From contig CANBRM010000009.1 of the NCBI GenBank assembly GCA_947371915.1, positions 1 through 51,869 on the forward strand: a DNA stretch of 51,869 nt, in the 5' to 3' direction. The translations under genes were made by a program, and so were the position numbers. Positions 1 through 45,957 of the stretch are shown one piece after another; within the stretch, counting starts at the first letter, position 1, and each line of letters starts with the position of its first letter. This stretch comes from Comamonadaceae bacterium. Lineage in GTDB: Bacteria; Pseudomonadota; Gammaproteobacteria; Burkholderiales; Burkholderiaceae_C. The notes below the pieces were generated by a model that was not told the DNA's origin, searched no databases, and saw nothing but the letters and a program-made list of their open reading frames with translations.

Positions 1-3000
1 GACATCACCGCTGGTAAAGCTTTGGTGGCTGTGCCTAAGTCTGTGTTGGACAGCGCCGGTGAAGGCGCTGCCAGCGTGACCGCCACCATCACCGACGTGG
101 CAGGCAACACCAGTTCACCGAGCCCCGCAACGGCTATCAACATCGACACCCAAGGTGGCGGCGCTAACGCCACCGTGACCTTCACAGGTTTGACCGTCGA
201 CGTGCCAACTTTGGCCGTGGGTGACTCCAAAGACACGGGCAGCAGCACGACTGACTTCATCACCAGCGACCGCACTTTGACCATTCAAGGCACTGCGTCT
301 GGTTTCAGCAATTTTGGCTTGGCAGTCAATGACAAAGTGTGGGTGCAAATCTTGGCACCCGATGGCGTGACGGTGGTGGCCGAAGGCGGCGTGGTGCCAG
401 ACGGTGCGGGCGTGTTCACGTTCAGCAATCAAAGCATCAGCTTGCCCGACGGCAAGTACACCATCAAGACCTCGGTGGTGGATGGTTTGGGTAACCTCGT
501 CAAAGCTGGCGACACCCAATTTTTGGTGATTGATGGCAGCGGCAACAGCAACCCTGGCAACGCACCAAGCACAGTCGACGGCAACACGGCTGTGACCTTC
601 AGCGGCTTGTCGATCCACGACACGGCCCTCGGCTCGATCGACTCAGGCAGCAGCACGACCGACTTCATCACCAGCGACAACACCTTGGTGATCGAAGGCA
701 ATGTGACGGGCTTCACCAATACCGGTGGCACTGCAGGCGACAAAGTGTTGGTGCAAATCTTGAACAGCAGCAGCGTGGTGGTGGCACAGAAATTCGTGAC
801 GCCAGATGTCAGCAACCACTTCGCGTTTGACAACAAAGCGATGTCGTTGGCTGACGGTCAGTACACGATCAAAACGTCCATCGTTGACGCCGCTGGCAAC
901 TTGGTGAAGGCGGGTGACTCACAAGCGTTGGTGATCGACACCAACGCCAACGGCACCAACCCTGGCAGCAACCCCGGCAACCCCAACCCTGTGGACCCGA
1001 ACGCAAGCGGCGTGACGTTCTCTGGCCTGACCATCAACGGTTTGGACAGCTACGACACCGGTTCGAGCAGCACCGATTTCGTGACCAGCGACAAAACGCT
1101 GCTCATAACCGGCAAAGTCACGGGTTACAGCGCAGCAGGTGGCGGCATTGGCGACAAAGTGTTGGTGCAAATCATGGCGGCCGATGGCGTGACCGTGGTG
1201 GCACAAAGCTTTGTGACACCCGATGTGTTCACCGGCCAATACACGTTTGACAACAAGGCCAACAACTTGGCCGATGGCAAATACACCATCAAGACCTCGA
1301 TCGTCGATGCGTCGGGTAACACCGTCAAACCCGGCGACAGTCAGCTTTTGGTGATTGACACCAACAACGGCGGTACCACCCCAGGTAGCAACCCCGGCAA
1401 CGAGAATGGCCAACCCAACTCAGCCGTGGACAGCAACACGGGGGTGACGTTCTCTGCGTTCTCGATCACCGACGCGACCAAGCAATCGGCAGACACCGGT
1501 TCGAGCAGCTCCGACTTCATCACTGGCGACGCCACCTTAGTGTTCAAAGGCACGGCCGCTGGCTTCACCACCGCAGGTGGCGCAGCAGGTGACCGCGTGC
1601 GTGTGCAAGTGTTGGCGGCCGACGGCGTGACCGTGGTGGCCGAGCAGTATGTGACGCCTGATGGCAGCGGCAACTTCGTGTTCGACAACACAGCCAACAC
1701 ATTGTTTGATGGCAACTACACCGTCAAAGTGGCGGTGGTCGATGCGGCAGGCAACGTGGTCAAAGCGGGCACAGCGCAGCCTTTGGTCATCGACACCAGC
1801 GCAACCATCAACCCTGGCAATGCCAACGGTGTGGACACCAACACCTCAGCCACGTTCAGCGGTCTGACCATCAACGACACAGCCAATGGTTCGAACGACG
1901 ATGGCACCAGCACAAGCGACTTCATCACGACAGACGCGACCTTGATCTTTGCAGGCAAAGTCACCGGCTTCACCGCCACAGGTGCCACAGCCGGCGACAA
2001 AGTGTTGGTGCAAATTGTGAACAGCAGCAACGTGGTGGTGGCGCAGCAGTTTGTCGCGCCAGACGTCAGTGGCAACTACGCGTTTGACAACAAGGCCAAT
2101 ACCTTGGCCGATGGCATCTACACCATCAAAACATCCATCGTGGACGTTGCAGGCAATACCGTCAAAACGGGCGACAGCCAAGCTTTGACCGTCAGTGCCA
2201 GCGCAGGCAATACCGTGAACATCACCGGCATCACCACCGACAGTGGCGCGAGCGGTACCGACTTCATCACCAACGACCAAACCTTGATCGTGTCAGGCAA
2301 CGTGACAGGCTATGTGCCCGCCTCGAACAACCAAGTGCACGTCACGGTGTTGGCCGCTAATGGCACCACAGTCATTACGGACCAATTTGTCACGCCTAAC
2401 GCCTCCGGTGTTTGGACGTTTGACAACACCCCCAACACCTTGGCCGCTGGCAACTACACCTTGCGTGCCGAGTTGGTCAGTGCTGCCCATGTATCTTTGG
2501 GTGTGGTGAAAAACCAGGCTTTGGTGATTGAAATCGCAGCAACGCCAGATGCCACGTTGACGTTCTCTGGCTTGACCATTCACGATGTGGCCAACGGTTC
2601 GACCGACACAGGTTCGAGCACCAGCGATTTCATCACCAGCGATAGAACGCTGATGGTGGAGGGCAAAGTGTCTAACTTCTCAGCGGCGCATGTGGCTGCG
2701 GGTGACAAGGTGTTGGTGCAAATCTTGAATAGCAGCAACGTGGTGGTGGCACAGCAATATGTGGCCCCAGACCTGAGCGGCAACTACACGCTGGACAACC
2801 GCACCAACAGCTTGGCCGATGGCAGCTACACCATCAAGACGTCCATCGTTTCAGCGGCGGGCAACTTGATCAAGGCGGGCGACACACAAGCCTTAACCAT
2901 CGACAACCTCGCCCCAACAACGCCAGCGACCGCGCCTACCAGCTACGTCGACAACGTGGGCAACATTCAAAGCACCACCAGCACGGCTGCGACGACCGAT

Positions 3001-6000
3001 GACACCACACCCGGTTTGAACATCGGCACCGTGCCAGCTGGCACAACGCCTAAGTTGTATGTGGATGGCGTGGCGGTGGCTGCGGTTTACGACCCAGTTG
3101 CAGGATCATTGACGCCTACGACGGCATTGAGCTTGGCCCCACATGCTTTGACCTACACCTTGACCGATACAGCAGGCATGGAAAGTTTGCCTAGCCCAGC
3201 GTTGAACGTGACCATCGTCGGCAACCCCGTGTTCTCCAGCGGTGCGACAGCATCGTTTGCTGAAAACACCGCGACGACCACGACCGTCTACGATGCGCAA
3301 GCCGACGCAGACACAGGCATCACCTACACCTTGACCGGTGCAGACGCCACCAAGTTCGCGATCAACAGCACCACCGGTTTGGTGACCTTTGTGACCTCGC
3401 CTGACTTTGAAGCGCCGACAGACGCGGGTGCCAACAACGTGTACGACATCACAGTGCGTGCGACCAATGCGGCCGGTGCTTTCACCGATAAAGCTGTGGC
3501 CGTGACCGTGACCAACGTGAACGACAAGCCTGTGTTGACCTTTGGTTCCACGACCAATTACTACGAAAACTCCGTTGCAACCGCCATCAACACCGCCATC
3601 ACGGTGGCCGACCAAGACAACACCACGCTGACCAGCGCCACGGTGTCGATCTCGGGGGGTTACGTGGCCGGCCAAGATGTGCTGAGCTTCACCAACGTGT
3701 CGGGCACGATGGGCAACATTGCTGCCACCGTATCGGCCGGTGTGATGACACTGACCTCTGCGGGTGGTACCGCAACGTTGGCGCAATGGCAGACGGCTTT
3801 GCGTGCTGTGTCCTACACCAACACCTCGGACATCCCAACCACAGCCGCCCGCACGGTGAGCTATGTCATCAACGACGGTGCTTTGAACTCCACCGCCATC
3901 ACGTCGACGTTGAACGTGGTTGCGTTGAACGATGCGCCTGTGGCTGCGTACTCCTACGTGGACAGCCATGCCCTCGTGACCCTGACTGTGCCCACGGTGA
4001 CGGTGACCGACAGCAGCACGGCTGCGACGGCGGTTGGCGCCAACGCCACCTTCACGTTGACCTTCAGCGAAGCCATCGATGCCAGTACGTTGACGGCTGC
4101 CGACATCGTGGTGACCAACGGTACTTTCCAGTCGTTGACGCAAGTCGATGCCACGCATTGGACCGTGGTGGCCAAGGCACCCGCTACAGGCGCGGGGGTG
4201 ATGGCCATCAGTTTGGCTGACGCTAGCTACAAGAGTTTGTTGGGTGTGGACGGCTCCAGCGGTTCAGCCACGCAGCCTTTCGGCACATCCAGCTTGCCGA
4301 TGGTTATCAACGGAACCACAGGTGCAGACACCTTGGTTGGCGGCGATGCGGCGGACACCATCACCCTCAACGGGGGTGTTGACAAAGTGTTTGCCGGTGC
4401 GGGTGACGACATCGTCTCCATCAACAGCAGCAGCTTGACCAGCATGGCTGTGGCCGCTAACGGCATGGAGATTGACGGCGGCGCAGGTATCAACACCTTG
4501 AAACTGGACATTGCGGGTGGCACGCTTGATTTGACCAATGCCGCAGTGGCGGCCAAATTGGGGCACTTCAACTCGATCGACATCAGCGGCACGGGCAGCA
4601 ACTTCATCACCTTGAGTGTTGATAACGTGCTCGCGTTGGCCAAGGGAACGGCTGATGACATCACAACAGCCGCCAACGAAGCCAAGATGTTGGTGATCAA
4701 CGGCGGCCAAGGTGACGGTGTTTATTTGTTGAACACAGCGGCTTGGACGCAGTCCCCTGATACGGTTTCTGGCTTTGACCTTGCCAATTTGTATGGGCCT
4801 GGTTATGGATTTAATATCGATTGGAACTACTACGAGCTGACGCTCAATGGCGCGACCATCTACATCATTGAACTCATGGCATCGCCAAGTGATCCTTTAT
4901 CGATTCCTGCAGCCAACGCCTACAACGGCGGCATGACGCAGGCGGTCACCATCGACAGCTTGTTTGCAGCAGGCTTTACCGATGTGGAAACAGCTTTGGC
5001 AACGCCTCAAACTTTCAAGGGTGTGGCGGTGACGTTTGCTGGCACTGCGGCGGACTTGACGACTTTGGGCAAGTACCAATACCTCAACGCCAGCAGCGTG
5101 TGGACGGACGTGGCCGCAGGCCTGACCGACGCCAATGCGCTGTACTTGGACCACGGCACACAAATCCGTTTCTTGGCCGCCACTGGCAACTCCGCCATGG
5201 CTAAGCCAGACATGCAAGTGCGCTTGGTCGACAGTTCGGTGGCGGTGCCTGCCAACGGCGCGTTCACCAACGCCAGCGTGAACGGTGGCACCTCGGCATT
5301 CAGTGGCCAAGAGATCACCTTGACGGACCATGTGGTGGCACGCATCACCGACAACGCTGCTGCTGTGGCTGCCAACGGTGGCACGGTGACTTACACCTTG
5401 TCATTCAGCGGCCTCGTGGATCCAGCGACTGTCACGATGGCTGACATTGGCGTGACGCACATGTCCAGCACAGGTTCAATGTCCGCCGGCGCCGTGGGCA
5501 ACTTTGTGTACAACTCAGGTGCTCAAAACTGGACGTTCAACGTGGTCGAACCTGCCACTGGCAGCGGCACCACCTTGATCACCTTGCACGATGGCAGCTA
5601 CAACAGCGCAACCGGCACAAGCGGCATGGGCGCAACGGTGGCGCAAACCTATGGCACGGCAGGTTCGACAGACCTGACCGTCAACAGCCTAACCCTGGCT
5701 GCAACGGCCTCGGGTGTGGAAGTCGACACCACCCAAGTGGCCACGTTTGAGGCGCTCCAAGGCGTCAATACCGTGGACCTGACAGGCGGTGGCAACAACA
5801 TCATCAAGCTCGATCTGCATGCGGTCATGCAAATGCCTTCGGCTATTGATAACGCGGCCACCACCAGCGTCAATGAAAGCCACACGGTGGTTGTCAATGG
5901 CAACGGTACAGGTGCGCTGGGTGCGTCGGATGTGTTGCAACTGGTAGACGGTACAAGCTGGACCACATCGGCGTCAGCAACACACCTCACTGCTGCAAGT

Positions 6001-6117
6001 CTGACCAGCGCGTATGGCAGCAACTTTGCCTTCACGTCCGGTCACCAGTACTCGCAGTACACCAACGGCGCGGCCACGCTGTTTGTGGACGAGCAGCTCT
6101 ACCTCCAGAAGCTGTAA
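1..6117 (+). CDS. Giant repeat adhesin, 5' end outside window
   Basis: The frame is open from base 1, so this is the C-terminal 2038 residues of a longer protein; the TTG at 22 is not a real start. Order seen: seven Ig-like repeats of about 115 aa (nt 175-2910), a cadherin-like domain (about 3220-3530, ending in a TVTNVNDKPV motif), a second cadherin/VCBS-like domain (about 3535-3930), a bacterial Ig-like domain (about 3950-4280), a hemolysin-type Ca-binding stretch (GADTLVGGDAADT and GAGDD, about 4310-4430), then repeated 'ITGxGxNxIxL' modules and another Ig-like domain to the end. Cysteine appears absent. This is the architecture of large surface or biofilm adhesins exported by type I secretion; the exporter genes at 11.7-16.4 kb are the likely partner. 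A terminator-like hairpin follows the stop. Ligand and exact family are unknown. Secretion route is inferred from context. Confidence 0.9.
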   Translation, partial: DITAGKALVAVPKSVLDSAGEGAASVTATITDVAGNTSSPSPATAINIDTQGGGANATVTFTGLTVDVPTLAVGDSKDTGSSTTDFITSDRTLTIQGTASGFSNFGLAVNDKVWVQILAPDGVTVVAEGGVVPDGAGVFTFSNQSISLPDGKYTIKTSVVDGLGNLVKAGDTQFLVIDGSGNSNPGNAPSTVDGNTAVTFSGLSIHDTALGSIDSGSSTTDFITSDNTLVIEGNVTGFTNTGGTAGDKVLVQILNSSSVVVAQKFVTPDVSNHFAFDNKAMSLADGQYTIKTSIVDAAGNLVKAGDSQALVIDTNANGTNPGSNPGNPNPVDPNASGVTFSGLTINGLDSYDTGSSSTDFVTSDKTLLITGKVTGYSAAGGGIGDKVLVQIMAADGVTVVAQSFVTPDVFTGQYTFDNKANNLADGKYTIKTSIVDASGNTVKPGDSQLLVIDTNNGGTTPGSNPGNENGQPNSAVDSNTGVTFSAFSITDATKQSADTGSSSSDFITGDATLVFKGTAAGFTTAGGAAGDRVRVQVLAADGVTVVAEQYVTPDGSGNFVFDNTANTLFDGNYTVKVAVVDAAGNVVKAGTAQPLVIDTSATINPGNANGVDTNTSATFSGLTINDTANGSNDDGTSTSDFITTDATLIFAGKVTGFTATGATAGDKVLVQIVNSSNVVVAQQFVAPDVSGNYAFDNKANTLADGIYTIKTSIVDVAGNTVKTGDSQALTVSASAGNTVNITGITTDSGASGTDFITNDQTLIVSGNVTGYVPASNNQVHVTVLAANGTTVITDQFVTPNASGVWTFDNTPNTLAAGNYTLRAELVSAAHVSLGVVKNQALVIEIAATPDATLTFSGLTIHDVANGSTDTGSSTSDFITSDRTLMVEGKVSNFSAAHVAAGDKVLVQILNSSNVVVAQQYVAPDLSGNYTLDNRTNSLADGSYTIKTSIVSAAGNLIKAGDTQALTIDNLAPTTPATAPTSYVDNVGNIQSTTSTAATTDDTTPGLNIGTVPAGTTPKLYVDGVAVAAVYDPVAGSLTPTTALSLAPHALTYTLTDTAGMESLPSPALNVTIVGNPVFSSGATASFAENTATTTTVYDAQADADTGITYTLTGADATKFAINSTTGLVTFVTSPDFEAPTDAGANNVYDITVRATNAAGAFTDKAVAVTVTNVNDKPVLTFGSTTNYYENSVATAINTAITVADQDNTTLTSATVSISGGYVAGQDVLSFTNVSGTMGNIAATVSAGVMTLTSAGGTATLAQWQTALRAVSYTNTSDIPTTAARTVSYVINDGALNSTAITSTLNVVALNDAPVAAYSYVDSHALVTLTVPTVTVTDSSTAATAVGANATFTLTFSEAIDASTLTAADIVVTNGTFQSLTQVDATHWTVVAKAPATGAGVMAISLADASYKSLLGVDGSSGSATQPFGTSSLPMVINGTTGADTLVGGDAADTITLNGGVDKVFAGAGDDIVSINSSSLTSMAVAANGMEIDGGAGINTLKLDIAGGTLDLTNAAVAAKLGHFNSIDISGTGSNFITLSVDNVLALAKGTADDITTAANEAKMLVINGGQGDGVYLLNTAAWTQSPDTVSGFDLANLYGPGYGFNIDWNYYELTLNGATIYIIELMASPSDPLSIPAANAYNGGMTQAVTIDSLFAAGFTDVETALATPQTFKGVAVTFAGTAADLTTLGKYQYLNASSVWTDVAAGLTDANALYLDHGTQIRFLAATGNSAMAKPDMQVRLVDSSVAVPANGAFTNASVNGGTSAFSGQEITLTDHVVARITDNAAAVAANGGTVTYTLSFSGLVDPATVTMADIGVTHMSSTGSMSAGAVGNFVYNSGAQNWTFNVVEPATGSGTTLITLHDGSYNSATGTSGMGATVAQTYGTAGSTDLTVNSLTLAATASGVEVDTTQVATFEALQGVNTVDLTGGGNNIIKLDLHAVMQMPSAIDNAATTSVNESHTVVVNGNGTGALGASDVLQLVDGTSWTTSASATHLTAASLTSAYGSNFAFTSGHQYSQYTNGAATLFVDEQLYLQKL
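175..2910 (+). repeat. Seven tandem Ig-like adhesin repeats
   Basis: Seven consecutive units of roughly 330-400 bp encode about 115 aa each. They share DTGSS-x-xDFITSD near the start, GDKVLVQIL in the middle, then FDNKANTLADG-YTIKTSIVDAAGN and a terminal LVID. Approximate starts are 175, 595, 1010, 1445, 1850, 2215 and 2560. Unit six is shorter and most diverged. Linkers are Gly/Asn/Pro-rich (NPGSNPGN). Near-identical DNA blocks in units two, five and seven suggest recombination between repeats. A single diverged copy occurs in the second adhesin at about 10018-10355. Confidence 0.9.
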
Positions 6118-8393: not shown

Positions 8394-11300
8394 ATGCTCA
8401 AACAGTACAAAATTTTGGTCAATGAAGGCAAGGGCTCGGAAAACGTGCTCGTCACTGTGCCCGCAGGCGCAGGCGCCCGTGGCAATCCCACGCGCATCAC
8501 CGCGAAGCCAGACACGCGCTACGAACTGCAAGACGACCTCAAAGGCAAAGGCTTAGGCCCCGACCAAGTGCGCGGCAAACGCGTGGGCAAAAACCTGTAC
8601 CTCATGTTTGAAGACAACGGCAAACCCGACGTCATCATTGAGGGCTATTACGAACCCATCAACCTGCAACAAGTGCCCACCATCGTGGGCAAAGCCGAAA
8701 ACGGCTCGGTCTACGAATACATCCCGCACGACCCCGAACTCAGCAGCATGAGCACCACGCTCAAAGACGGCTACACACCCGCCATGCTGTCGCTAGGCGG
8801 CGGCCCCATTGCGGGCGGCGCGTTTGAGTTGGCTGGCTTGCCCTTGGTTGCAGCGGCTGCTGGCGGCGGCTTGGGTGGATTGGGTTGGATCGCTGCTGGA
8901 TTGGGGGCTGCGGCTTTGGGGGGGGGCGGGGGTGGTGGTGGTGGTGGCACTGCCGGGCCTGTTGCGCCTAATGGCGGTGTTGCGCCAACGGTGACGATCA
9001 CAACAGATGCTGACAACAATGGCGTTGTGAATAAAACAGAACTCAACGGTGCGGTAACTTTTTCAGTAAGAGCAGACTTTGATAAGACCAAAACTGCAAT
9101 TGGTGACAAGGTTGTTCTCACAGATGGTGGATCACCAGCTGTTGTAAAAACAGTCGTACTTACTACGCAGGCTATGGTTGATGCGGGTTATGTCACCGCA
9201 GACTTTGCCAAGCCAGCCGAAGGTGCAACACTTAAAGTTAGTGCACTCTTACAACGTGACACATTATCTTCGGCAAGCGGAACTGACAGTGCTTTGTTGG
9301 ACACAGTTTCAAACGCAGATCCCAGCGATCCAACAGGCAGCACAAGCCTCAAGCCTGTTGTCGTAATCACGACTGACACCAATAACGATGGCTTTGTGAA
9401 TAGCACCGAAATTAATGGTGGCGCAAACTTTAATGTCAGTGTGGCGTTTACAGGCAAGGTTGTGGCTGGTGATACCGTCGTTGTGACTGCGTCTAATAAC
9501 GAGCCTAAATCTTTTGTGTTGACAGCTGACGATATCAAGGCTGGCAAGATCACTTCAACATTTACAAAGCTTGCCAATGGGGTGGCTTTGACTGTCACGG
9601 CTACAGTGAAAGATCAGAATGGAAATGAGAGCCCCGCTGGTAGTGACACTGCAATTTTGGACACAGTAGTCGATACGGCTACTGGCGAGTTGAAGCATGA
9701 CGCGGCAAATGACACAGGTATTTCATCGACAGACAACATCACAAACAATACATCCCCTGTCATCACTGGGATTGCAGAAAAGGGTGCAAAAGTTATCGTG
9801 ACTGTTGGTGCTTTAGTGTGCGCAGAGGTAACAGCAGATCCCTCGACAGGTGCATACAGCGCCAAAGTTCCAGGTACTTTGGCCTCGGCGAAATACACGC
9901 CCAAAATTCAAGTCACAGACCTTGCAGGCAATACGACTACAGTCGATGGCACGCCCTTCACTGTCGATACGCAAGATCAAGTTAACCCAAACAACAACAA
10001 AAATGATCCAAACGCGTCTGCCATTATCAGCGTCACGTCGATCACGGATGACACTGGTACCCCCAATGATTTCGTGACGGCCGACCAAAGCTTAAAAATC
10101 AATGGTTCTGTCAAAAACTTCACCACAGCCGCAGGCACCGGTGGTGAAGGTGATGTCGTGTATGTACAAGTCTTCAACAAGGCTGGCGTGGCAGTACAAG
10201 GCGCTGCAGCGTATGTCACGGTTGACAGCACAGGCGGCTGGACGCTTGACAACCAAGCCGTCACTTTGCCACAAGGCGAATACACCGTTTTTGCAACCAT
10301 TCAAGACGCGGCGGGTAACAAAGTTAAAGACACGACGCATAACTTTGTCGTGAGCACAGGAACCAATGTGGGCGACCTGAAAGCGGTTGCGGACACAAAC
10401 AGCGTCTCGGAAGACGGCGCAACGTTTACCGTGACCGGTAACGTACTGACTGGCGATGCTGCGACGGGGAATGGCGCTGACATTGATGTGTTGTATACCT
10501 ACAAAGACTTGGTCATTTCAAAAGCATTTTTTGGTACAACAGTTCCACCTTCAGCGATCTGGCCAGTTACTCTAAACGGTAACTACGGCAAATTGGATTT
10601 AAATGCTGATGGTTCTTATCAGTACACCTTGGACAACCTCAAAGCCCAAGCCTTAAAAGGTGGCGAGATTAAGCAAGAGGTGTTTGCCTATGAGGTGAAG
10701 GAGACGCAGGGCAACAAGCTGTCAAGCCAATCTACGCTCACAATTGATGTTGTTGGTGTGGAAGATCTGGCAACAACATCAACAACATTAAACGGTGTAG
10801 CAAATACCCACTATCCCCTAAATATGACGGGTTCAGTTCAGGGCTTCAGTTTGCCGAGCGCTTTGCAATTGAACATTACAGATGCGGACTCGGGTCAAAG
10901 TTATTTCAAAAATTTATCTAGCAATACGCTGATCACAAGTTCTGCAGTTGGTGGACAAACATTCGCAGGCGGTTATGGTGGTGAATACCACATCACCATG
11001 AATGCGGAAACTACGCAGACTGACCACAGCTACGCGTGGAGCTATGACTCTATTAAGCAAGTCACTCCAGGCAGTAAGGTAGTGCATGACTTGTTAACAC
11101 TGACATCCGTGGACGGAAGTTCCAGCCAAACGATAGAAACAATGATTGGTGATTCAAGCACTGGTGTAGTTCAACAAGATTACTATTCCTCAACGGCTGC
11201 TGGTTTAAAAGTGACCGGTAGTGGTTTTTCTACGACTGATACGCTTTACTTAACAGGTGCGAATTTAACTTTAGATTTAACAGCTACGACCACCAATGTC

Positions 11301-11582
11301 ACCTTGATGGATAAATTTGACATTACAGGAGCAGGTTCGAACACCATCAAGCTGAACGTAAGTTCTTTGTTGACAGCAGACATCGTAAACGGCCATCACA
11401 CGCTCTACATAATTGGTGACAGCGGCGATAAAGTGGTGATCGCTGGTGCTGGATTGGCGAGTGCTTGGACTCATGCAAACAACCAAGCCGGAGATTCGGT
11501 TTATACAAATGCAGGTACAAACGACCAACTCGTGATCGACGCCCACATCACAGCGGCCAACATTTCATTCGTAACCACCTAA
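8394..11582 (+). CDS. BapA/Lap-like type I secreted adhesin
   Basis: A 1062-aa protein. Residues 1-120 resemble the BapA-prefix N-terminal domain. Residues about 125-185 are a hydrophobic Gly/Ala-rich segment ending in ten consecutive glycines. EF-hand-like DxDNNGVVNKTE (about 203) and DTNNDGFVNSTE (about 327) motifs sit in two related Ig-like domains. Another Ig domain, one copy of the 115-aa repeat of the giant adhesin (about 543-655), a VCBS-like domain with LDLNADGSYQYTLDNL (about 740), and a C-terminal ITGAGSNTIKLNV module follow. No Sec signal is present, as expected for type I export. From about nt 8990 onward base composition becomes more AT-rich than the N-terminal coding part, a sign of separate origin of the repeats. 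A strong terminator follows at 11635. Adhesion or biofilm function is inferred. Confidence 0.85.
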   Translation: MLKQYKILVNEGKGSENVLVTVPAGAGARGNPTRITAKPDTRYELQDDLKGKGLGPDQVRGKRVGKNLYLMFEDNGKPDVIIEGYYEPINLQQVPTIVGKAENGSVYEYIPHDPELSSMSTTLKDGYTPAMLSLGGGPIAGGAFELAGLPLVAAAAGGGLGGLGWIAAGLGAAALGGGGGGGGGGTAGPVAPNGGVAPTVTITTDADNNGVVNKTELNGAVTFSVRADFDKTKTAIGDKVVLTDGGSPAVVKTVVLTTQAMVDAGYVTADFAKPAEGATLKVSALLQRDTLSSASGTDSALLDTVSNADPSDPTGSTSLKPVVVITTDTNNDGFVNSTEINGGANFNVSVAFTGKVVAGDTVVVTASNNEPKSFVLTADDIKAGKITSTFTKLANGVALTVTATVKDQNGNESPAGSDTAILDTVVDTATGELKHDAANDTGISSTDNITNNTSPVITGIAEKGAKVIVTVGALVCAEVTADPSTGAYSAKVPGTLASAKYTPKIQVTDLAGNTTTVDGTPFTVDTQDQVNPNNNKNDPNASAIISVTSITDDTGTPNDFVTADQSLKINGSVKNFTTAAGTGGEGDVVYVQVFNKAGVAVQGAAAYVTVDSTGGWTLDNQAVTLPQGEYTVFATIQDAAGNKVKDTTHNFVVSTGTNVGDLKAVADTNSVSEDGATFTVTGNVLTGDAATGNGADIDVLYTYKDLVISKAFFGTTVPPSAIWPVTLNGNYGKLDLNADGSYQYTLDNLKAQALKGGEIKQEVFAYEVKETQGNKLSSQSTLTIDVVGVEDLATTSTTLNGVANTHYPLNMTGSVQGFSLPSALQLNITDADSGQSYFKNLSSNTLITSSAVGGQTFAGGYGGEYHITMNAETTQTDHSYAWSYDSIKQVTPGSKVVHDLLTLTSVDGSSSQTIETMIGDSSTGVVQQDYYSSTAAGLKVTGSGFSTTDTLYLTGANLTLDLTATTTNVTLMDKFDITGAGSNTIKLNVSSLLTADIVNGHHTLYIIGDSGDKVVIAGAGLASAWTHANNQAGDSVYTNAGTNDQLVIDAHITAANISFVTT
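8918..8932 (+). repeat. Poly-G tract in adhesin gene
   Basis: Nine consecutive G (8918-8926), one C, then five G (8928-8932), followed by a GGT-type glycine run. The tract encodes the glycine linker (residues about 176-185). A one-base slippage would shift the frame and stop the adhesin early, so the tract could act as a phase-variation switch. Confidence 0.85.
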
Positions 11583-36648: not shown

Positions 36649-38208
36649 ATGTCCATCCCGCGCCGTGTATCGACCCCTAAGTTTGAAGCCCGTTGGCCTG
36701 CCACGGCGATTTGGCTTTGTGCATGGGCGTTGTTGTGGCGTTTGGACGGTGTGCTCAATTTGGGGAATTTGGCGCTCTTGCTCGTGTTGGCCAGTGCCAT
36801 CGCCAGCGTGTGGTTGTCGGCGTTGGTGTCGGTGGGGTGCAGTGCGTTGTCGGTGCTGATGTTCAATTGGTTTTTTGTCGAACCGCGCATGACCTTCAGC
36901 GTGCATTTGCACCAAGACATGCTGCTGCTCGTCACCATGATGGCGGTGAGTTCGGTTGTCAGTTATTTGATGGCACGCTTGCGCATGGCGGCTGCCTTAG
37001 AAAGTCAACACGCCCAAGCTTCCGAACAATTGCGTGTGTTGGGCGAAATGCTGCGCGAGACACGCGACGCTCACACCCAAGGCGAGGTGTTGCAGGCCTT
37101 GTTGATTCAAAATACGGGCTGCGAGGTGTCTGTGTTGCTCCTTCAAGATACCGCGTCTGAGCAGGCCACGGCAGACAGCCAGTGGGTGGGCGAGCCGCAG
37201 CCGCAAGACGTGCAAGGCTTGTGGGCGTGCGTGCAACAGATGGGGGCCATGGGGCCGGGCACGGGGCGTCATGAAAATCAGTCGACCGTGTTTTTGCCCT
37301 TGCGCGGCCATGTGCGTGCGTTGGGTGCGGTGGCCTTGCATGGCGGCGCAGGGCTCAAGTCATTGACGGCGGTGCAGCGCGACCTGCTGCAACAGGCGTG
37401 TGATGTGTTGGGCCTAGAACTGGAACGCGCCCAAACGCTGCGACTTGCCCAGCAAGCCAAAGACGACGCGCAAAGCCAAAGCCTGCGCAACACCTTGCTC
37501 ACCTCTATTTCGCACGACTACCGCACGCCGCTGGCGAACCTCATGGGGGCGGCTTCTGTGATTCAAGCGCAAGCCCCACGCTTGAGCACTGACAAAGTGG
37601 CTGGCTTGGCCCAAACCATCTTGGATGAAGCGCAGCACCTCAACCGCATGACCACCAACACCTTGCAGTTGGCACGCTTAGATTCGGCACCTTTGCAGAT
37701 TCAAAAAGACTGGGAGTCGTTGCAAGAGATTTTGGGTTCTGTGCTGGCCAAGGCCCGTCAACGTCACCCACAGCGGCAGATATTGGTGACGGTTCCAGAT
37801 GCCTTGCCCCTCATTCACTGCGATGCCATTTTGTTGGTGCAACTGTTTGATAACTTGATGGAAAACGCCATCAAGTACAGCCCAAGCCACACGCCGATTG
37901 AGATTCGAGTGCTGGCCACAGCCCTCGCCCTTGAGGTGCGGATGATCGACCAAGGCACAGGCATTGTGGATGCGTGGAAAGACAAAGTGTTTCAAGCCTT
38001 TGAGCGCGTGCACGCTGACACCGCCCAGGCGGATGCGACAGACGACACACAGCTGCGCCGTGGCATGGGCGTGGGCTTGGCCGTGTGTAAGGCGATTGCT
38101 AAAGTGCATGGCGCCACGATTTGGGTGGAAGACCACCAGCCGCAAGGTGCGGTGATGTGCCTGTCCTTGCCCGTGGTGCAGCAGCCCGACGTGCGCGTGG
38201 AGGCCTGA
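36649..38208 (+). CDS. KdpD-like sensor histidine kinase lacking the N-terminal KdpD/Usp domains
   Basis: A 519-aa kinase. Four membrane helices (about residues 15-110) form a DUF4118-type KdpD transmembrane domain with the NWFFVEPRMTFSV loop. A GAF-like region (about 130-275) follows, then HisKA with phospho-His in SISHDYRTPL (about 290) and HATPase with NLMENAIKYSP, DQGTGI and GMGVGLAVC. KdpD of E. coli is about 895 aa with a cytoplasmic KdpD and Usp domain before the helices, both absent here. No Shine-Dalgarno is evident before ATG 36649. It is followed five bases later by its response regulator and then by kup, which points to K+ sensing; sensing mode is unknown without the N-terminal domains. 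Confidence 0.88.
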   Translation: MSIPRRVSTPKFEARWPATAIWLCAWALLWRLDGVLNLGNLALLLVLASAIASVWLSALVSVGCSALSVLMFNWFFVEPRMTFSVHLHQDMLLLVTMMAVSSVVSYLMARLRMAAALESQHAQASEQLRVLGEMLRETRDAHTQGEVLQALLIQNTGCEVSVLLLQDTASEQATADSQWVGEPQPQDVQGLWACVQQMGAMGPGTGRHENQSTVFLPLRGHVRALGAVALHGGAGLKSLTAVQRDLLQQACDVLGLELERAQTLRLAQQAKDDAQSQSLRNTLLTSISHDYRTPLANLMGAASVIQAQAPRLSTDKVAGLAQTILDEAQHLNRMTTNTLQLARLDSAPLQIQKDWESLQEILGSVLAKARQRHPQRQILVTVPDALPLIHCDAILLVQLFDNLMENAIKYSPSHTPIEIRVLATALALEVRMIDQGTGIVDAWKDKVFQAFERVHADTAQADATDDTQLRRGMGVGLAVCKAIAKVHGATIWVEDHQPQGAVMCLSLPVVQQPDVRVEA

Positions 38209-38213
38209 AGCGC

Positions 38214-38912
38214 ATGGCCCTCAAAGTTTTGTTGGTCGAGGACGACCGTGAATTGCGCCAAACCTTGCGCGATGCCTTGAGCGTGGAGGGTTACGAGGTG
38301 GTGGCCAGCGGCAGCGCCGCCGATGCCAGTGCGGTGCTGCGTCACAGCATGGCCTCAGACCGCCCCTTGGACGTGTTGCTCTTGGACTTGGGCTTGCCCG
38401 ATGGCGACGGTGGCGATTTGTTGCGCACCGTGCGCGCGCAGTACGCCTTGCCCGTGCTGATCATCTCAGCGCGTCATGACGACGCCAACAAAGTCACCTT
38501 GCTCGACGCAGGTGCTGACGATTACTTGGTCAAACCCTTCAGCATCAGCGAGTTGCTGGCGCGCATGCGTGTCACGTTGCGACACCGGGGCACGGTGGTG
38601 CTAGCGCCGCAAACGCATTACCGCGCTGGGGCGTTAGAGATCGATTTGGCCAAACACGCCGTGCGCCTAGCCGGTGAGCCCGTGCATCTGACGCCCACCG
38701 AGTTCAAGTTGCTGGCGCGCTTGGTGCGTCAAGCGGGTCAGGTGGTGACGCACCGCCAATTGCTGGTCGATGTGTGGGGCGCTGAGCATGTGGACCAAAC
38801 CCACTATTTGCGTCTGTACATGGGCCAGTTGCGCGCCAAGCTCGAAGCCAACCCGACCGAGCCCGTCTTGCTGTTGACCGAGCCGGGTGTGGGCTATCGC
38901 TTGGCTGAATAG
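38214..38912 (+). CDS. KdpE-like OmpR-family response regulator
   Basis: A 232-aa regulator. The receiver (1-120) has the acidic pair in LLVEDDR, phospho-acceptor Asp58 in [12 protein letters not shown], and Lys107 in LVKPFS. A winged-helix domain (about 130-232) shows [43 protein letters not shown] and PGVGYRL, the KdpE pattern. ATG 38214 starts five bases after the kinase stop with a GGAGG site. The kinase gene, this gene and kup are on one strand, so kup is the probable target. A GCGTT-CCT-AACGC palindrome at 38957-38969 just upstream of kup is one candidate site. Confidence 0.92.
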
Positions 38913-39007
38913 GCGCACAACGCCTTGCAGATGCAGACACGGATGCTGACACTTATGCGTTCCTAACGCCCTTGCAGGCAAGCTCAGGGCACTTACTAGG
39001 AGTGCTC

Positions 39008-40909
39008 ATGTCAGCCATAGATTCAGACAACCCATCCGCGCACATCAAGCGCCAGTCCACCGCCGCCTTGACCTTGGGGGCCATCGGCGTGGTGTACGGC
39101 GACATTGGCACCAGCCCGCTGTACACGGTGAAAGAGGTGTTCTTGCCCGCCACAGGCATTGCTTTGACGCCCGAGAACTTGATTGGTGCGGTGTCCACCA
39201 TCTTCTGGGCCCTGATGCTCATCGTCACCCTCAAGTACGTGATTTTGATTTTGCGTGCGGACAACCGCGGCGAAGGCGGTGCTTTGGCGCTGACCGCGCT
39301 GGCGGCGAATGCCGTGAAGCACAAGCCGAAGTTGCGTCACTTTTTGCTGTTACTGGGCTTATTTGGGGCCACCTTGTTTTACGGTGACAGCGTGATCACA
39401 CCGGCCATTTCGGTGCTCGGTGCGGTGGAAGGTTTGGAGATGGTCACGCCGGTGTTGCAGCCTTATGTGGTGCCCATTGCTTTGACCGTGTTGGTGATGT
39501 TGTTTGTCATGCAACGTTGGGGCACCAGCTTTGTGGGCAAGTTTTTTGGCCCCATCATCGTGGTCTGGTTTGTGATCTTGGGCGCGACAGGCGTGGCGCA
39601 AATTGTGCAAACACCCGCCATCTTGGCCGCATTCAACCCGCTGCATAGCCTTCAGTTTCTGTATGACCGTGGGCCCTTTGTGCTCGCTGCGGTGGGCGCG
39701 ATTGTGTTGGCGCTCACGGGTGCTGAGGCCTTGTACGCCGACATGGGCCACTTTGGTCGCAAGCCCATTCAAATCGCGTGGATGGGCTTGATCATGCCGA
39801 GCTTGGTGCTGCATTACATGGGCCAAGGTGCGTTGCTGATGCGCGACCCTTCGGCCATTGAAAACCCCTTCTTTCGCATGTTCTCGCAAGACTGGTTGGT
39901 CGCGGCGGTGGTGTTGGCCACGGTGGCCGCCATCATCGCGTCGCAAGCGGTCATTTCGGGCGCTTACTCCATGACCAAGCAGGCCATTTTGTTGGGCTTC
40001 TTGCCACGCATGGACATCAAATACACCTCGGAGCAAGAGGTCGGACAAATCTACATGCCCAGCGTGAATTGGATTTTGTTGGCCGGTGTGTTGATCGCCG
40101 TCATGACCTTCAAGAGTTCGTCGGCCTTGGCTGGCGCGTATGGCATTGCGGTGACCTTGACCATGGTGATCACCACCGTGATGACCTTCTTTGTCGTGCA
40201 CGACGCTTGGAAAGTTCGTACCCCTTTGGCTATTGCCGCTACGCTGTTCTTTTTGACCATCGACGCCTTTTTGTTTGCCGGCTGCATCATCAAATTCTTT
40301 GATGGCGGTTGGTTGCCGCTGGCCATGGGTTTGACGCTTTACATGGTCATGACCACCTGGTCGCGTGGCCGTGAGTTGGTGGTGGACACCATCCGTCGCG
40401 ATGGCTTGGACTTGGGCACCTTCATTCAGCACATTGACTCGGGCAGTCCACACTTGGCCAAACGCACCGCTATTTATGCCGTGGCCAATCCCGAAACTGT
40501 GCCCCAAGCCTTGCTGCACAACATGAAGCACAACCAAGTGCTGCACGAGAAAAACATCATCTTGACGGTGGAGTTCGAGAACGTGCCTTGGGTGTCCGAT
40601 AAACAACGTGTTCGTGTGGAACGTCTGAGCGAGCACTTCTGGCAAGTGTGGGTCAAGTATGGCTTCATGAACACGCCCGATGTGCCCAAAGCCTTGACCC
40701 AGTGCCAAGCGCATGCCCTTGAAATTCCCGTGTTTGAAACGTCTTACTTTTTGAGCCGAGAAACAGTGGTTTCCACACCCGGTGGTGGCATGGCCCAATG
40801 GCGCGAAAAGCTGTTCGCCGCCATGACGCGCAACTCAGGTGGCGTGGTGGAGTTCTTCCACCTCCCCGATAACTCCGTAGTTGAACTGGGAACGAGGGTA
40901 CAAATATGA
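39008..40909 (+). CDS. kup: Potassium uptake protein Kup
   Basis: A 633-aa, 12-helix K+/H+ symporter. Hallmarks: [21 protein letters not shown] (residues about 18-38), [41 protein letters not shown], and [16 protein letters not shown]. The hydrophilic C-terminal third (about 460-633) is normal for Kup. ATG 39008 has AGGAG seven bases upstream; an in-frame ATG at 38972 is ignored. It lies 95 bases downstream of the kdpE-like gene and overlaps the next ORF by four bases. K+ accumulation under low pH or low K+ is the family role. Confidence 0.95.
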
Positions 40910-41172
40910 TCGAACACACCTTACCTGTCACGCTCAAACTTACAGGCAAAGCGGGGCTGGAGCCGCGTATGGCGGCGCAATTCGCCATGGTGGCTTCACC
41001 CTTTGAGGGCGAGGTCACCGTGGCGTGTCACGGTCGAACGGTCAATGCCAAGTCGGTGGCCGAGGTGATGTCGCTGGGCGCGGTGCACGATGACTTGGTG
41101 GAGCTTCATGCCGAGGGCGAGGATGCGCAGCAAGCGGTGAATGCCTTGATTGCGGTGATTCAAAAGGGCTAG
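40906..41172 (+). CDS. HPr-like protein with Glu at the phospho-His position
   Basis: An 88-aa protein of the HPr fold. The usual GLHARPAA active-site loop reads GLEPRMAA (residues 17-24): His to Glu19, Arg21 kept. [14 protein letters not shown] (residues 46-59) keeps the regulatory-Ser segment (Ser50), and a closing '[11 protein letters not shown]' matches the HPr C-terminus. It cannot accept phosphate on His, and Glu may mimic the charged phospho-form. The start codon overlaps the kup stop as ATGA, so production is coupled to the K+ transporter. In enteric bacteria, the nitrogen PTS controls K+ transport (EIIA-Ntr acts on TrkA and KdpD); a link of this degenerate HPr to Kup or KdpD is inferred from that and from the operon. 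Confidence 0.85.
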
Positions 41173-41192
41173 TCCGCTTCTCCACGCGCATC

Positions 41193-41233
41193 AAAAAAAG
41201 TCCCGCAAGCTTTGCAGCTTGCGGGACTTTCTT
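41193..41233. terminator. Bidirectional terminator between the kup operon and pckG
   Basis: A 14-bp stem AAAGTCCCGCAAGC/GCTTGCGGGACTTT (41197-41210 and 41217-41230) with a 6-nt loop. On the minus strand it is followed by a run of seven T (beginning inside the stem). On the plus strand TTTC ends it. It serves the kup operon and the converging pckG. Confidence 0.9.
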
Positions 41234-41280
41234 ATCGTCGCGTTCAGCACCCAGCGCGGGCCAAGTGCTGCTGGGGCCGA

Positions 41281-43556: not shown

Positions 43557-44042
43557 CTAATCCACGATCGCCACTGTCGTGGTCGAGACCGTCAGGGCTG
43601 GATTGAGCGAAACGCCTTGGCGCGCCAGCTGATTTTTCAGCAAACCTTGGTAGCGCGTGTTGTGCACAGGTGTCACCGAGTGGTAGGCCGCTGCACCAAA
43701 CCAGGTGTAGCCGTGGCGCTCGAGCCCACGTTTCAAAAACCAAGCCGACACGTAAGCGCCTTTGCACGCGTCTAACAAATGCTTTTCGGTCACGCCGTAG
43801 CGTTGCAACTCGGGCAAATGCATGGAGTTGATCTGACCAATGCCAAGGTCCACCGTGCCATTCGTGTTTTTGCCCACGGCGCGTGGGTTGAGCCCCGACT
43901 CCACCTGCAGTACCGCCAAGAGCAAATGCGGGTTCACGCTGTGAAATTCGGCGGCTGATTGCACACACGACGTGGGATTTGTTGCCCAGGCGAACTTGGC
44001 AAAAATGAGAACGGCGCAAGCCAATAGTAGTTTAATTTTCAT
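43557..44042 (-). CDS. Lytic transglycosylase, VirB1/IagB/PilT(R64)-like
   Basis: A 161-aa secreted enzyme. The signal peptide ends AKFAWA (about residue 20). The SLT fold follows: catalytic Glu in VLQVESGLNP (about 48), GTVDLGIGQINSMH (about 62-75), and a second AAAYHSVTPVHNTRYQ (about 117) completing the goose-lysozyme-type pattern. A Cys pair (about 26 and 92) matches VirB1/IagB proteins that form a disulfide. It cuts peptidoglycan to let a pilus or secretion machine through. It is divergent from the PilQ-like ATPase gene, which supports a pilus- or conjugation-related origin of the pair. Confidence 0.85.
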   Translation of the reverse strand: MKIKLLLACAVLIFAKFAWATNPTSCVQSAAEFHSVNPHLLLAVLQVESGLNPRAVGKNTNGTVDLGIGQINSMHLPELQRYGVTEKHLLDACKGAYVSAWFLKRGLERHGYTWFGAAAYHSVTPVHNTRYQGLLKNQLARQGVSLNPALTVSTTTVAIVD

Positions 44043-44143: not shown

Positions 44144-44272
44144 ATGAATGATTTCTTTAACTTCGTGAAGGCCGTGATGGGCCATCACTTCAAGCCATGT
44201 GAGCTGCAAGTGCGTGTGAACGGCTTAGCCCATATTGAGTTGTTGGCAATACGTTTCGGGACAAGGTCATGA
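44144..44272 (+). CDS. 42-aa ORF coupled to the PilQ-like ATPase
   Basis: A 42-codon frame beginning MNDFFNFVKAVMGHHFKPCE and ending AIRFGTRS. Its stop overlaps the ATPase start as ATGA, so the short product is likely translated and couples translation of the ATPase. No family recognised, no membrane segment, one Cys. It could be a leader peptide or the remnant of a longer pilus gene cut by deletion. An alternative start at 44148 is out of frame. Confidence 0.5.
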   Translation: MNDFFNFVKAVMGHHFKPCELQVRVNGLAHIELLAIRFGTRS

Positions 44273-45957
44273 GCGTGGAAACCCTCACCCCTCCCAGCAG
44301 TAAGGCTGGGCAACACATCAGCAACATTGAAGATGTTCCTACTTTCAGCAGCCTCTTGACGCATGGGGCAGAAGCAATCACCACGGTTCCTAAAGACAAA
44401 GAGCGCACATTGGTGGCGCTTGGGTTGAATGGCAATGGTTACTTTTTGCTGTGCATGCCTGAAGAGCAACACAAGTTGGCCTGGTTGGCGTTGCGCGAGC
44501 GCCTAAAAGCACGTGGTTACACGCCGGGAGGTCATGCGACTTGTAGCGAAGAGGTGATGAATGTGTTGCTCCAGGACGTGACTCGTGCGAGCAAAGACGC
44601 GACATTTCAAATCGAATCGGATGTCAATGCGGTCAATGAAGTCGTGAACGAGCCTCAGCCGATAGGTTGGTTTCGTGATGTGTTGGCCAGTTGTATCAAT
44701 TTAGACGCTACCCATTTGCACTTTGAGTTACGCGGTAACTGCGCTTTGGTCCGCGTACGTTTGCATGGATTGATGCATGAATTGACGTCAGTGCCGAAGC
44801 AAACTGCCTTAGACGGTATTTCGGCGGTCTACAACGCCGTTGCGCAAGAACGATCATGTGCAGGTGGTGTCTTCAACCCAGCGCTGGCTCAGCAGGCCAT
44901 GATTCCATTTGCGTTGGGGTCTGAGACCGTGAACTTGCGCATTCAAAGCCATCCCGCCATGTCTGGCTTTGATGTGACTATGCGGATCGTGCGCGCAAAA
45001 AAAGTCGGTCGCGAGAAGCTGCGCCTAGACACTTTGGGGTACACCCCATCGCAAATCGACGACTTACACATGGCGTCGCGCCGCTCATTGGGCGGAATAT
45101 TTATTGCTGGTGTTGGCGGCTCAGGTAAAACCACCACGTTAAACACTTTGCTTGCTCAATTGGCGCAAGAGCGCTATCGAAAGATAGTGTCAATTGAAGA
45201 CCCTGTGGAGTGCTATGCCAATGGCGTGTCTCATTTCTCGATTCAGCACCATGTGGACGGTCATCAAGCATCTCAACGCCTGAAAAGCGCATGGATGGCA
45301 TTCTTACGTATGGACCCCGACGTGGGCGTATTTGGTGAGGTTCGAGACGAATTTTCAGCGGAGTTGGCGTTGAACGCGATTCATAACGGACACAAAATTT
45401 TGACTACGGTGCATGCCCTCTCAGCGTTGGGCGTGGTCGAACGTTTGTCGTCAACAGCGTTTGGCCTTCGACGGGATCTCGTGTGTCAACCCGATTTTTT
45501 TGCGGCTTTGGTCTACCAAGTCTTGACACCTGTGAATTGTCTTTCGTGCAAAGTACGGGCGCTAGACGTCATGTCATCTGAGGCACTGGCTCCCTATCAA
45601 ACCATCTTTGGTTTGGATGTAGGGGACATCTATTGCGCCAGTGAACACGGTTGTGACGAATGCCTCAAGCCCAATATTGACTACTCAGAGCTTAAGCATG
45701 TGGGCGTGAAGGGCGTGAAGGTCAATGCTGAAGTGATCTTGCCTGACGAAGACATGCTCTTGTTACTCAAAGACGGAAAAGACATAGAAGCTCGCCAAGC
45801 ATGGCGCGCTAAACGTATCGCCAAATTCGACGAGTCCCACATGATAGGCAAGGAAGCGTGGGGGCATGCGCTGTACGACATGTCGCGTGGCTTGATAGAT
45901 CCGTATTACTTTGAGATGAACTTTGGGTCGCCCAAGTTGTTGGCCGCCAAGGTCTAA
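44269..45957 (+). CDS. PilQ(R64)/GspE-family secretion ATPase
   Basis: A 562-aa hexameric-ATPase-family protein. An N-terminal domain of about 130 residues is unassigned. The core has Walker A GVGGSGKTT (about 281-289), Asp box IEDPVE (about 309), Walker B-type DPDVGVFGEVRD (about 350) and His box ILTTVHA. CLSC (about 424) and CDEC (about 465) could form a zinc site as in GspE. The LTTVHA and SSxxGLRRDL blocks resemble the PilQ/DotB/TraJ-type ATPases of IncI type IVB pili and Dot/Icm systems more than PilB or PilT of housekeeping pili. No other pilus gene is in the window, except the divergent lytic transglycosylase, so this looks like a remnant or minimal module. The C-terminal 70 residues are unusual. 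Confidence 0.82.
   Translation: MSVETLTPPSSKAGQHISNIEDVPTFSSLLTHGAEAITTVPKDKERTLVALGLNGNGYFLLCMPEEQHKLAWLALRERLKARGYTPGGHATCSEEVMNVLLQDVTRASKDATFQIESDVNAVNEVVNEPQPIGWFRDVLASCINLDATHLHFELRGNCALVRVRLHGLMHELTSVPKQTALDGISAVYNAVAQERSCAGGVFNPALAQQAMIPFALGSETVNLRIQSHPAMSGFDVTMRIVRAKKVGREKLRLDTLGYTPSQIDDLHMASRRSLGGIFIAGVGGSGKTTTLNTLLAQLAQERYRKIVSIEDPVECYANGVSHFSIQHHVDGHQASQRLKSAWMAFLRMDPDVGVFGEVRDEFSAELALNAIHNGHKILTTVHALSALGVVERLSSTAFGLRRDLVCQPDFFAALVYQVLTPVNCLSCKVRALDVMSSEALAPYQTIFGLDVGDIYCASEHGCDECLKPNIDYSELKHVGVKGVKVNAEVILPDEDMLLLLKDGKDIEARQAWRAKRIAKFDESHMIGKEAWGHALYDMSRGLIDPYYFEMNFGSPKLLAAKV

Follow-up and report, generated by a model that had tools for sequence, protein, structure and literature searches.

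A KdpDE-like two-component pair predicted to control a second Kup potassium transporter, and an HPr-like gene overlapping it, in a Comamonadaceae genome

What does a KdpDE-like two-component system control in a genome in which the KdpFABC pump is not found, and what is an HPr-like protein doing behind the K+ transporter beside it? These questions are raised by a contig of a Comamonadaceae bacterium (GenBank assembly GCA_947371915.1, contig CANBRM010000009.1), analysed over 51,869 nucleotides (hereafter the window), in which four genes follow one another on the forward strand: a gene for a KdpD-like sensor kinase (36649-38208, 519 amino acids), one for a KdpE-like response regulator of the OmpR/PhoB family (38214-38912, 232 amino acids), kup2, which encodes the genome's second K+ uptake protein Kup (39008-40909, 633 amino acids), and hprL, which encodes an HPr-like protein without the phospho-histidine (40906-41172, 88 amino acids). 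The known role of KdpDE is to switch KdpFABC, and Kup has mostly been treated as constitutive. Here, comparison across genomes gives good support to a transcriptional circuit in which the regulator very probably activates kup2 through a conserved repeat in front of it. A preliminary description of this DNA had given the gene order, the common strand, the gaps of 5 bases (38209-38213) and 95 bases (38913-39007) on either side of the regulator gene and the 4-base ATGA overlap of kup2 and hprL (40906-40909), all of which the coordinates confirm, and had proposed a closed K+-sensing circuit including a protein related to the phosphotransferase system (PTS). A KdpDE-like pair wired to Kup without KdpFABC was indeed found; the HPr-like part is not necessary to the circuit, because it was found only within the genus (9 of 84 genomes) and was probably lost again at least once. 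The arrangement is not a product of chance, as it recurs in other species. Close relatives of the window in a contig scan include Limnohabitans sp. Jir61, which carries the locus (L033), and Comamonadaceae metagenome-assembled genomes, from which the genus is taken as Limnohabitans.

The kinase contains DUF4118, HisKA and HATPase_c domains (71.9, 42.9 and 72.5 bits, each above its Pfam cut-off) and aligns with positions 405-888 of the 895-position NCBIfam KdpD model at 225 bits, short of the equivalog cut-off of 1123. Its best match among solved structures is the catalytic part of KdpD (6lgq_C), and the HPF-type H-box ISHDYRTPL and the N and G boxes are invariant in four species. A GAF domain in the kinase rests on a GAF_3 match below the Pfam cut-off, because the AlphaFold model (four sequences), with a mean predicted local distance difference test (pLDDT) score of 51.6, was not used. 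The N-terminal KdpD domain (PF02702) was not among the Pfam matches of the kinase and had no match in the genome, in a search that was positive in 6 of 14 control genomes; the gene was rightly called a truncated KdpD-like kinase. In KdpD, that domain acts as a serine kinase and inhibits KdpFABC when K+ is high (PMC11018627). The regulator has the Response_reg and Trans_reg_C domains of the OmpR/PhoB architecture; its best NCBIfam family is KdpE, at 228.7 bits and below the equivalog cut-off of 325, and its best solved structure is KdpE (4kny, 203 bits), so that the name KdpE-like suits it. The residues aligned with the KdpE DNA contacts R193, R200 and T215 are all kept (3 of 3, with the numbering of the 4kny alignment taken as shifted by 2). 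KdpA was found in none of the 16 congeners carrying Kup2 by a search that was positive in 5 of 14 control genomes, in agreement with the absence of KdpFABC noted earlier; the genome of the window (G000) is 83.5% complete, and eight of the other 15 are 96-100% complete. Kup as the target of a KdpE-type regulator is not the rule, because KdpE of S. fredii was reported not to bind the kup promoter (PMC9239096).

The kup2 product matches both Kup domains above their Pfam cut-offs (K_trans PF02705, 589 bits; K_trans_C PF22776, 161 bits) and lies under the NCBIfam Kup cut-offs, at 702 versus 883 bits for NF008015 and 538.6 versus 539.6 bits for TIGR00794. The other Kup of the genome, on G000:C3, is 52% identical to Kup2. 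A search of 84 genomes of the genus at E 1e-60 gave a Kup match in 75; Kup2 (at least 69% identical) is present in 16, and every one of these contains a further Kup match. A regulator match stands upstream of kup2 at all 16 loci, 81-98% identical to that of the window at most, 64-79% at three and 42% in G018; the kinase, only 26% identical in G018, is seen at 14 of the 16, and in G101 and G008 the contig stops short of it. In the family (399 genomes, 141 genera), Kup2-like genes at E 1e-225 or better occur in 82 genomes of 48 genera at 85 places, and the order kinase-regulator-kup2 is widespread there. A gene order found only in this genome, which the preliminary description had named as speaking against its proposal, is thus not what was observed. 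Two side observations concern the kup genes themselves. About 10 kb separates the other kup from the hprK and PTS_EIIA_2 genes, all three on one contig and strand (G000:C3:54702-56555, 66660-67169 and 67601-68023), with a similar spacing by coordinates in G011:C2, G033:C3 and G103:C21. In addition, the 5' half of kup2 (window 39000-40000) is 76-86% identical to that of the sister genome G011 (L044) in most 200-base steps, and the regulator genes of the two are 92-96% identical (dS 0.21 versus 0.62 for kup2), as if a patch had been exchanged.

When the spacers between the regulator gene and kup of 12 congeners were aligned, a single conserved block stood amid otherwise unlike sequence, and with G084, G008 and G101 it is present at 15 of the 16 Kup2 loci of the genus; in G018 there is no site with up to three mismatches to the core within 400 bases upstream of kup2. 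In the window, the block reads CTTATGC-GTTC-CTAACGC on the forward strand at 38952-38969, a direct repeat with an 11-base pitch and the sole match without mismatch in the window, and in the family it mostly reads CTTATGCGTTCCTGATGC, again two half-sites at an 11-base pitch. No such operator lies within 400 bases upstream of the genome's other kup. The kup2 box is a predicted KdpE-type operator: it shares its half-site layout with the E. coli KdpE site, which consists of 6-bp direct repeats, TTTATA and TTTACA, 5 bp apart (PMC3264566). Alignment of 65 kup2 promoters on the motif (53 from the family and 12 from the genus) revealed a hexamer 9 bases after it, whose second base is A in all 65 and whose sixth base is T in 63. 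These two positions are the best conserved in a -10 element, and activators of the OmpR/PhoB family are usually placed in this way at promoters without a good -35. The corresponding hexamer of the window, CAAGCT (38979-38984, forward strand), would place the transcription start at about 38991 and leave a short leader ahead of kup. The kup-hprL pair seems to have a promoter of its own; separate promoters had been expected to speak against a joint circuit, yet this one carries the box attributed to the regulator, so that the objection is only half borne out. Generic promoter and terminator scans returned counts near those of shuffled sequence (2 versus 1.4 and 9 versus 6.8) and were not used. 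The operator and the -10-like hexamer in the 95-base gap, the second kup gene and a strong hairpin after hprL are all additions to the preliminary description.

Whether the box goes with the regulator was examined at 81 family loci, omitting G000, G011 and G033, which belong to the genus set, and G400, whose kup lies at a contig end. The operator core (13 bases, 11 of them fixed, at most one mismatch, within 400 bases upstream) was present at 53 of the 81, against a mean of 0.05 and a maximum of 1 in shuffled sequences. With the regulator defined as at least 50% identical, on the same strand and upstream, motif and regulator within 1.2 kb occurred together at 40 loci, the motif only at 13, the regulator only at 4 and neither at 24 (Fisher test, 1e-7); within 3 kb the counts were 47, 6, 4 and 24 (3e-11), and within 6 kb 50, 3, 4 and 24 (2e-13). 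The 6 kb table favours control by the regulator, because 13 loci were viewed over about 10 kb and the rest over no more than 3 kb; of the 24 loci with neither, 2 were viewed over 10 kb, 18 over 3 kb and 4 over a shorter stretch. With each distinct state counted once per genus, the 6 kb counts were 32, 3, 4 and 14 (6e-7).

Several points weigh against control of kup2 by the neighbouring regulator. The co-occurrence statistics ignore ancestry, and operator and regulator may both merely mark the orthologous locus. The regulator stands without the motif at L151, L173, L192 and L195, and the motif was found with the regulator unseen at L156 (up to the contig end), L166 (in 3 kb) and L205 (in 10 kb). 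Genome-wide, 7 of 68 operator matches lie elsewhere than at or upstream of kup2, and in the window no operator copy with up to three mismatches precedes the kinase gene, the three matches there comparing with a chance mean of 2.4. Simple marking of the locus is opposed by 10 loci in which the regulator is 1.8-5.2 kb away, with other genes in between in those inspected, and the motif is still at kup2, and also by the genomes named below in which both features are missing or the adjoining pair is a distant one. The box could instead be the target of another factor, or a general element of kup2 promoters, and the three family loci with a box and no such regulator seen nearby, together with the single copies elsewhere in some genomes, are what this alternative would predict; it has only a small chance of being right. 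The pitch of the half-sites is KdpE-like; G250 and G375 lack both box and regulator, fellow members of their genera having both; and in G018 (L051) and G174 (L210) the operator is missing upstream of kup2, where the adjoining pair is a distant one (regulator 42% and 49% identical) that may have come in by exchange of the two-component system.

A further argument against another factor comes from the distribution of the box over whole genomes. The 18-base pattern, with one mismatch allowed, was searched in 60 chosen genomes, 55 with Kup2, in most of which the motif had already been seen, and 5 congeners that lack Kup2. It matched 68 times, in 50 of the genomes: 50 of the matches are at kup2 promoters, 11 distal upstream and 7 elsewhere. 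The reversed pattern gave no match in the same 60 genomes, and the operator none in the 5 congeners without Kup2. The other genomes without a match are G101, G084, G270, G018 and G110, the first three of which have the site with two mismatches to the pattern. The 11 distal matches share the strand of kup2 and precede it by 2.3-5.1 kb; for each of the 10 that were read, the kinase match starts 35-156 bases further downstream, and TAnnnT follows the box at the same spacing in 10 of 10. Since these distal boxes sit just before the kinase gene, they suggest that the pair autoregulates in those genomes, even though the window has no such copy. Separately, an extra operator copy, CATATGCGTTCCTGATGC, was seen at an unrelated place in two members of one genus, at L243 (G135:C90:76704) and L244 (G341:C1:1187448), and is possibly a third target of the regulator. 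In the proposed mechanism, the membrane kinase would sense low K+ or a related ionic signal and phosphorylate the regulator, as their families suggest, K+ being proposed because of the KdpD-like membrane part and the Kup target; the regulator would then bind the repeat at 38952-38969 and activate the promoter, which has its -10 element 9 bases downstream, to produce a kup-hprL transcript.

The last gene raises the second question. HPrL scores 74 bits against PF00381 (cut-off 23) and 66.5 against TIGR01003 (cut-off 47.9), and a structure predicted from five sequences (pLDDT 78) has the HPr fold, with 3lfg as the best match and Crh and the His15Asp HPr structures among the others. In the window, Glu19 (40960-40962) aligns with His15 of HPr and Ser50 (41053-41055) with Ser46. 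The His15 position is Asp in seven of nine HPrL sequences, Glu in one (the window) and Gly in one (G103), with no His, and all 65 other HPr rows have His there (L022 and L128 being one gene counted twice); "degenerate HPr" in the preliminary description was therefore apt. As it lacks His15, HPrL is not a normal PTS relay. The Ser46 equivalent is Ser in 8 of 9, Pro20, next to the His15 position, and residues 82-86 are invariant in 9 of 9, and the residue aligned with Arg17 is not Arg in 2 of 9.

Within the genus, hprL, with its ATG overlapping the kup2 stop, follows kup2 in 9 of the 16 genomes (G000, G009, G101, G033, G096, G103, G104, G063 and G084); in G008 and G105 the contig ends in kup. 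A profile search of the 84 genus genomes returned these nine genes with scores of 134-170 bits; all else scored 72.5 bits or less, and no hprL was found away from kup2. Outside the genus, sampling of 399 genomes of the family, 399 of the order and 349 of the phylum yielded none (best others 75, 73 and 69 bits), in searches that did not score every first-look candidate and that a very diverged copy could escape. The contig scan returned four relatives (G009, G101, G033 and G096) and one ordinary Firmicutes HPr, and a plasmid search gave 27 records, all below 60% identity, with 13 of 15 among the matches listed carrying annotations as HPr or PTS proteins. A tree of 74 HPr rows, with few columns and an unsure root, places the nine HPrL in one group (100/94) and 63 of the 65 other rows in another (98/88). 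An origin of hprL as a recent copy of the genome's own ptsH is not supported, the HPrL group being separate from other HPr in that tree. At least two changes are required to explain the distribution of hprL on the Kup2 tree. There G011 is sister to the window (99/96), and hprL is cleanly missing from it between the final codons of kup and the hairpin that both share, which makes a gain followed by later loss the simplest account, with hprL probably lost again at least once. Beside this, in G106:C6 (L054) kup2 is in two pieces in different frames, which may be an assembly error, and hprL is gone with the ATGA overlap start remaining.

These data bear on whether HPrL has a role at all. A function is disfavoured by the absence of hprL after kup2 at 5 of the 14 visible loci (G011, G015, G018, G023 and G106, the last with its kup2 in two pieces) and by the fast-diverging copy of G084, which is 40% identical to that of the window, has Ala in place of Ser46 and gives ratios of nonsynonymous to synonymous rates (dN/dS) of 0.15-0.53 in 7 of the 8 pairs involving it (1 undefined). 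On such grounds, HPrL could be a relic or passenger, an old HPr copy that landed behind kup2 and is decaying. In nine species, however, the frame is open over 87-89 codons, and the overlap and the score against the HPr family are kept; the invariant Pro20 and residues 82-86 also speak against decay, and 25 of the 28 pairs among the eight closer sequences have a dN/dS of 0.06-0.23 (the other 3 being undefined), with dS near saturation in many pairs. From these ratios hprL looks to be under purifying selection, and decay is quite unlikely as the explanation.

Since the start of hprL lies inside the overlap with the kup stop, HPrL is probably made together with Kup. The simplest guess is that it acts as a small regulatory partner of Kup, because it has no His15 relay, overlaps kup and was found only there; its input could be HprK acting on the Ser46 equivalent, contact with a PTS protein, or both. 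This particular role has a little less than an even chance. HprK is present in all 16 Kup2-carrying congeners and a PTS_EIIA_2 protein in 15 of the 16; the window's own genome has a set of EIIA-man, HPr with its His and enzyme I (EI), and its PTS_EIIA_2 protein near HprK is taken as EIIA-Ntr. With these partners, HPrL could alternatively be a decoy in the nitrogen-type PTS, which would bind EIIA-Ntr or enzyme I and pass no phosphate on, so that making Kup would raise unphosphorylated EIIA-Ntr and feed back on the KdpD-like kinase or on K+ transport. It is a fair rival, because EIIA-Ntr acts on KdpD in other proteobacteria (PMC9239096, PMC13104625), through HisKA in E. coli or GAF in S. fredii (PMC9239096), and the kinase keeps both domains, GAF below the cut-off. 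The strict pairing with kup2 (9 of 9) nevertheless suits a Kup partner better, two of the nine have a residue other than Arg at the Arg17 equivalent, and there would be no need for a general decoy to lie behind Kup; the decoy is accordingly judged unlikely. If HPrL is understood loosely, as a regulator of Kup or of K+ uptake by any input, the explanation as a whole, from kinase to HPrL, is somewhat favoured. A bolder form of the partner role is that Limnohabitans rebuilt the two-layer control of KdpFABC on an unrelated transporter, with KdpDE-like transcription and a post-translational layer of HPrL gated by HprK at the Ser46 equivalent, HPrL replacing what the N-terminal serine kinase of KdpD gives KdpFABC; this bolder form is unlikely. 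If true, it would mean a dedicated HPr-fold subunit of a K+ transporter that couples K+ uptake to the carbon/PTS state.

Downstream, a hairpin at 41197-41230 (no strand assigned), probably a terminator, lies between hprL and a convergent phosphoenolpyruvate carboxykinase (PEPCK) gene; the fold of 41185-41245 has -31.1 kcal/mol and a z-score of -6.19, and the same hairpin stands directly 3' of kup in G011, which lacks hprL. Near the PEPCK gene are a lytic transglycosylase (SLT) gene and a divergent gene for a T2SSE-type secretion ATPase (window 43557-44042 and 44269-45957). Elsewhere, two long open reading frames (window 22-6117 and 8394-11582, 2031 and 1062 amino acids) contain bacterial Ig-like repeats (Big_13), and their products are probably surface proteins.

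The families of all parts are already known. In the literature searched (titles and abstract openings, most subscription journals lying outside its reach), no KdpDE-Kup pair or kup-HPr operon was found, and neither the wiring, a KdpE-type box on kup with no Kdp pump found, nor the overlapping pseudo-HPr appeared there. With the conserved box before kup2 in dozens of species of a single family, Kup is predicted to be inducible, and the system offers a test bed for the change of target of a two-component system in the absence of its former pump. Through the co-translated pseudo-HPr, a link from the carbon/PTS state to K+ uptake becomes directly testable in a freshwater genus.

Compared with KdpD/KdpE-KdpFABC of E. 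coli and others, the locus has the same regulator family, DNA-contact residues and operator half-site layout, the same membrane and catalytic parts of the kinase, and a K+ transporter as target; in contrast, no KdpA was found (0 of 16), the kinase is without the N-terminal KdpD domain, and the target is Kup. With the Kup family it shares both Pfam domains above cut-off, whereas Kup2 is one of two Kups, has a dedicated two-component system and box, is overlapped by an HPr-like gene and stays below the NCBIfam cut-offs. Crh of Bacillus is likewise HPr-like without an active His and is phosphorylated by HprK at Ser46; HPrL resembles it in the fold, the missing His, the Ser46 equivalent (8 of 9) and the presence of HprK in the genomes (16 of 16), and differs in having Asp, Glu or Gly at position 15, which is Gln in Crh, and in being tied to a K+ transporter gene. 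As in the K+ control of the nitrogen-type PTS, in which EIIA-Ntr acts with TrkA and KdpD, a PTS-family protein stands beside a KdpD-like kinase and a K+ transporter, but here it is HPr-like rather than EIIA-Ntr and is unable to carry phosphate on His15. Finally, the HPr fold serves as a binding module outside the PTS in complexes of E. coli HPr with Rsd and with glycogen phosphorylase and of V. cholerae HPr with a fructose regulator; those complexes use normal HPr, whereas here a dedicated paralogue is encoded beside its presumed partner.

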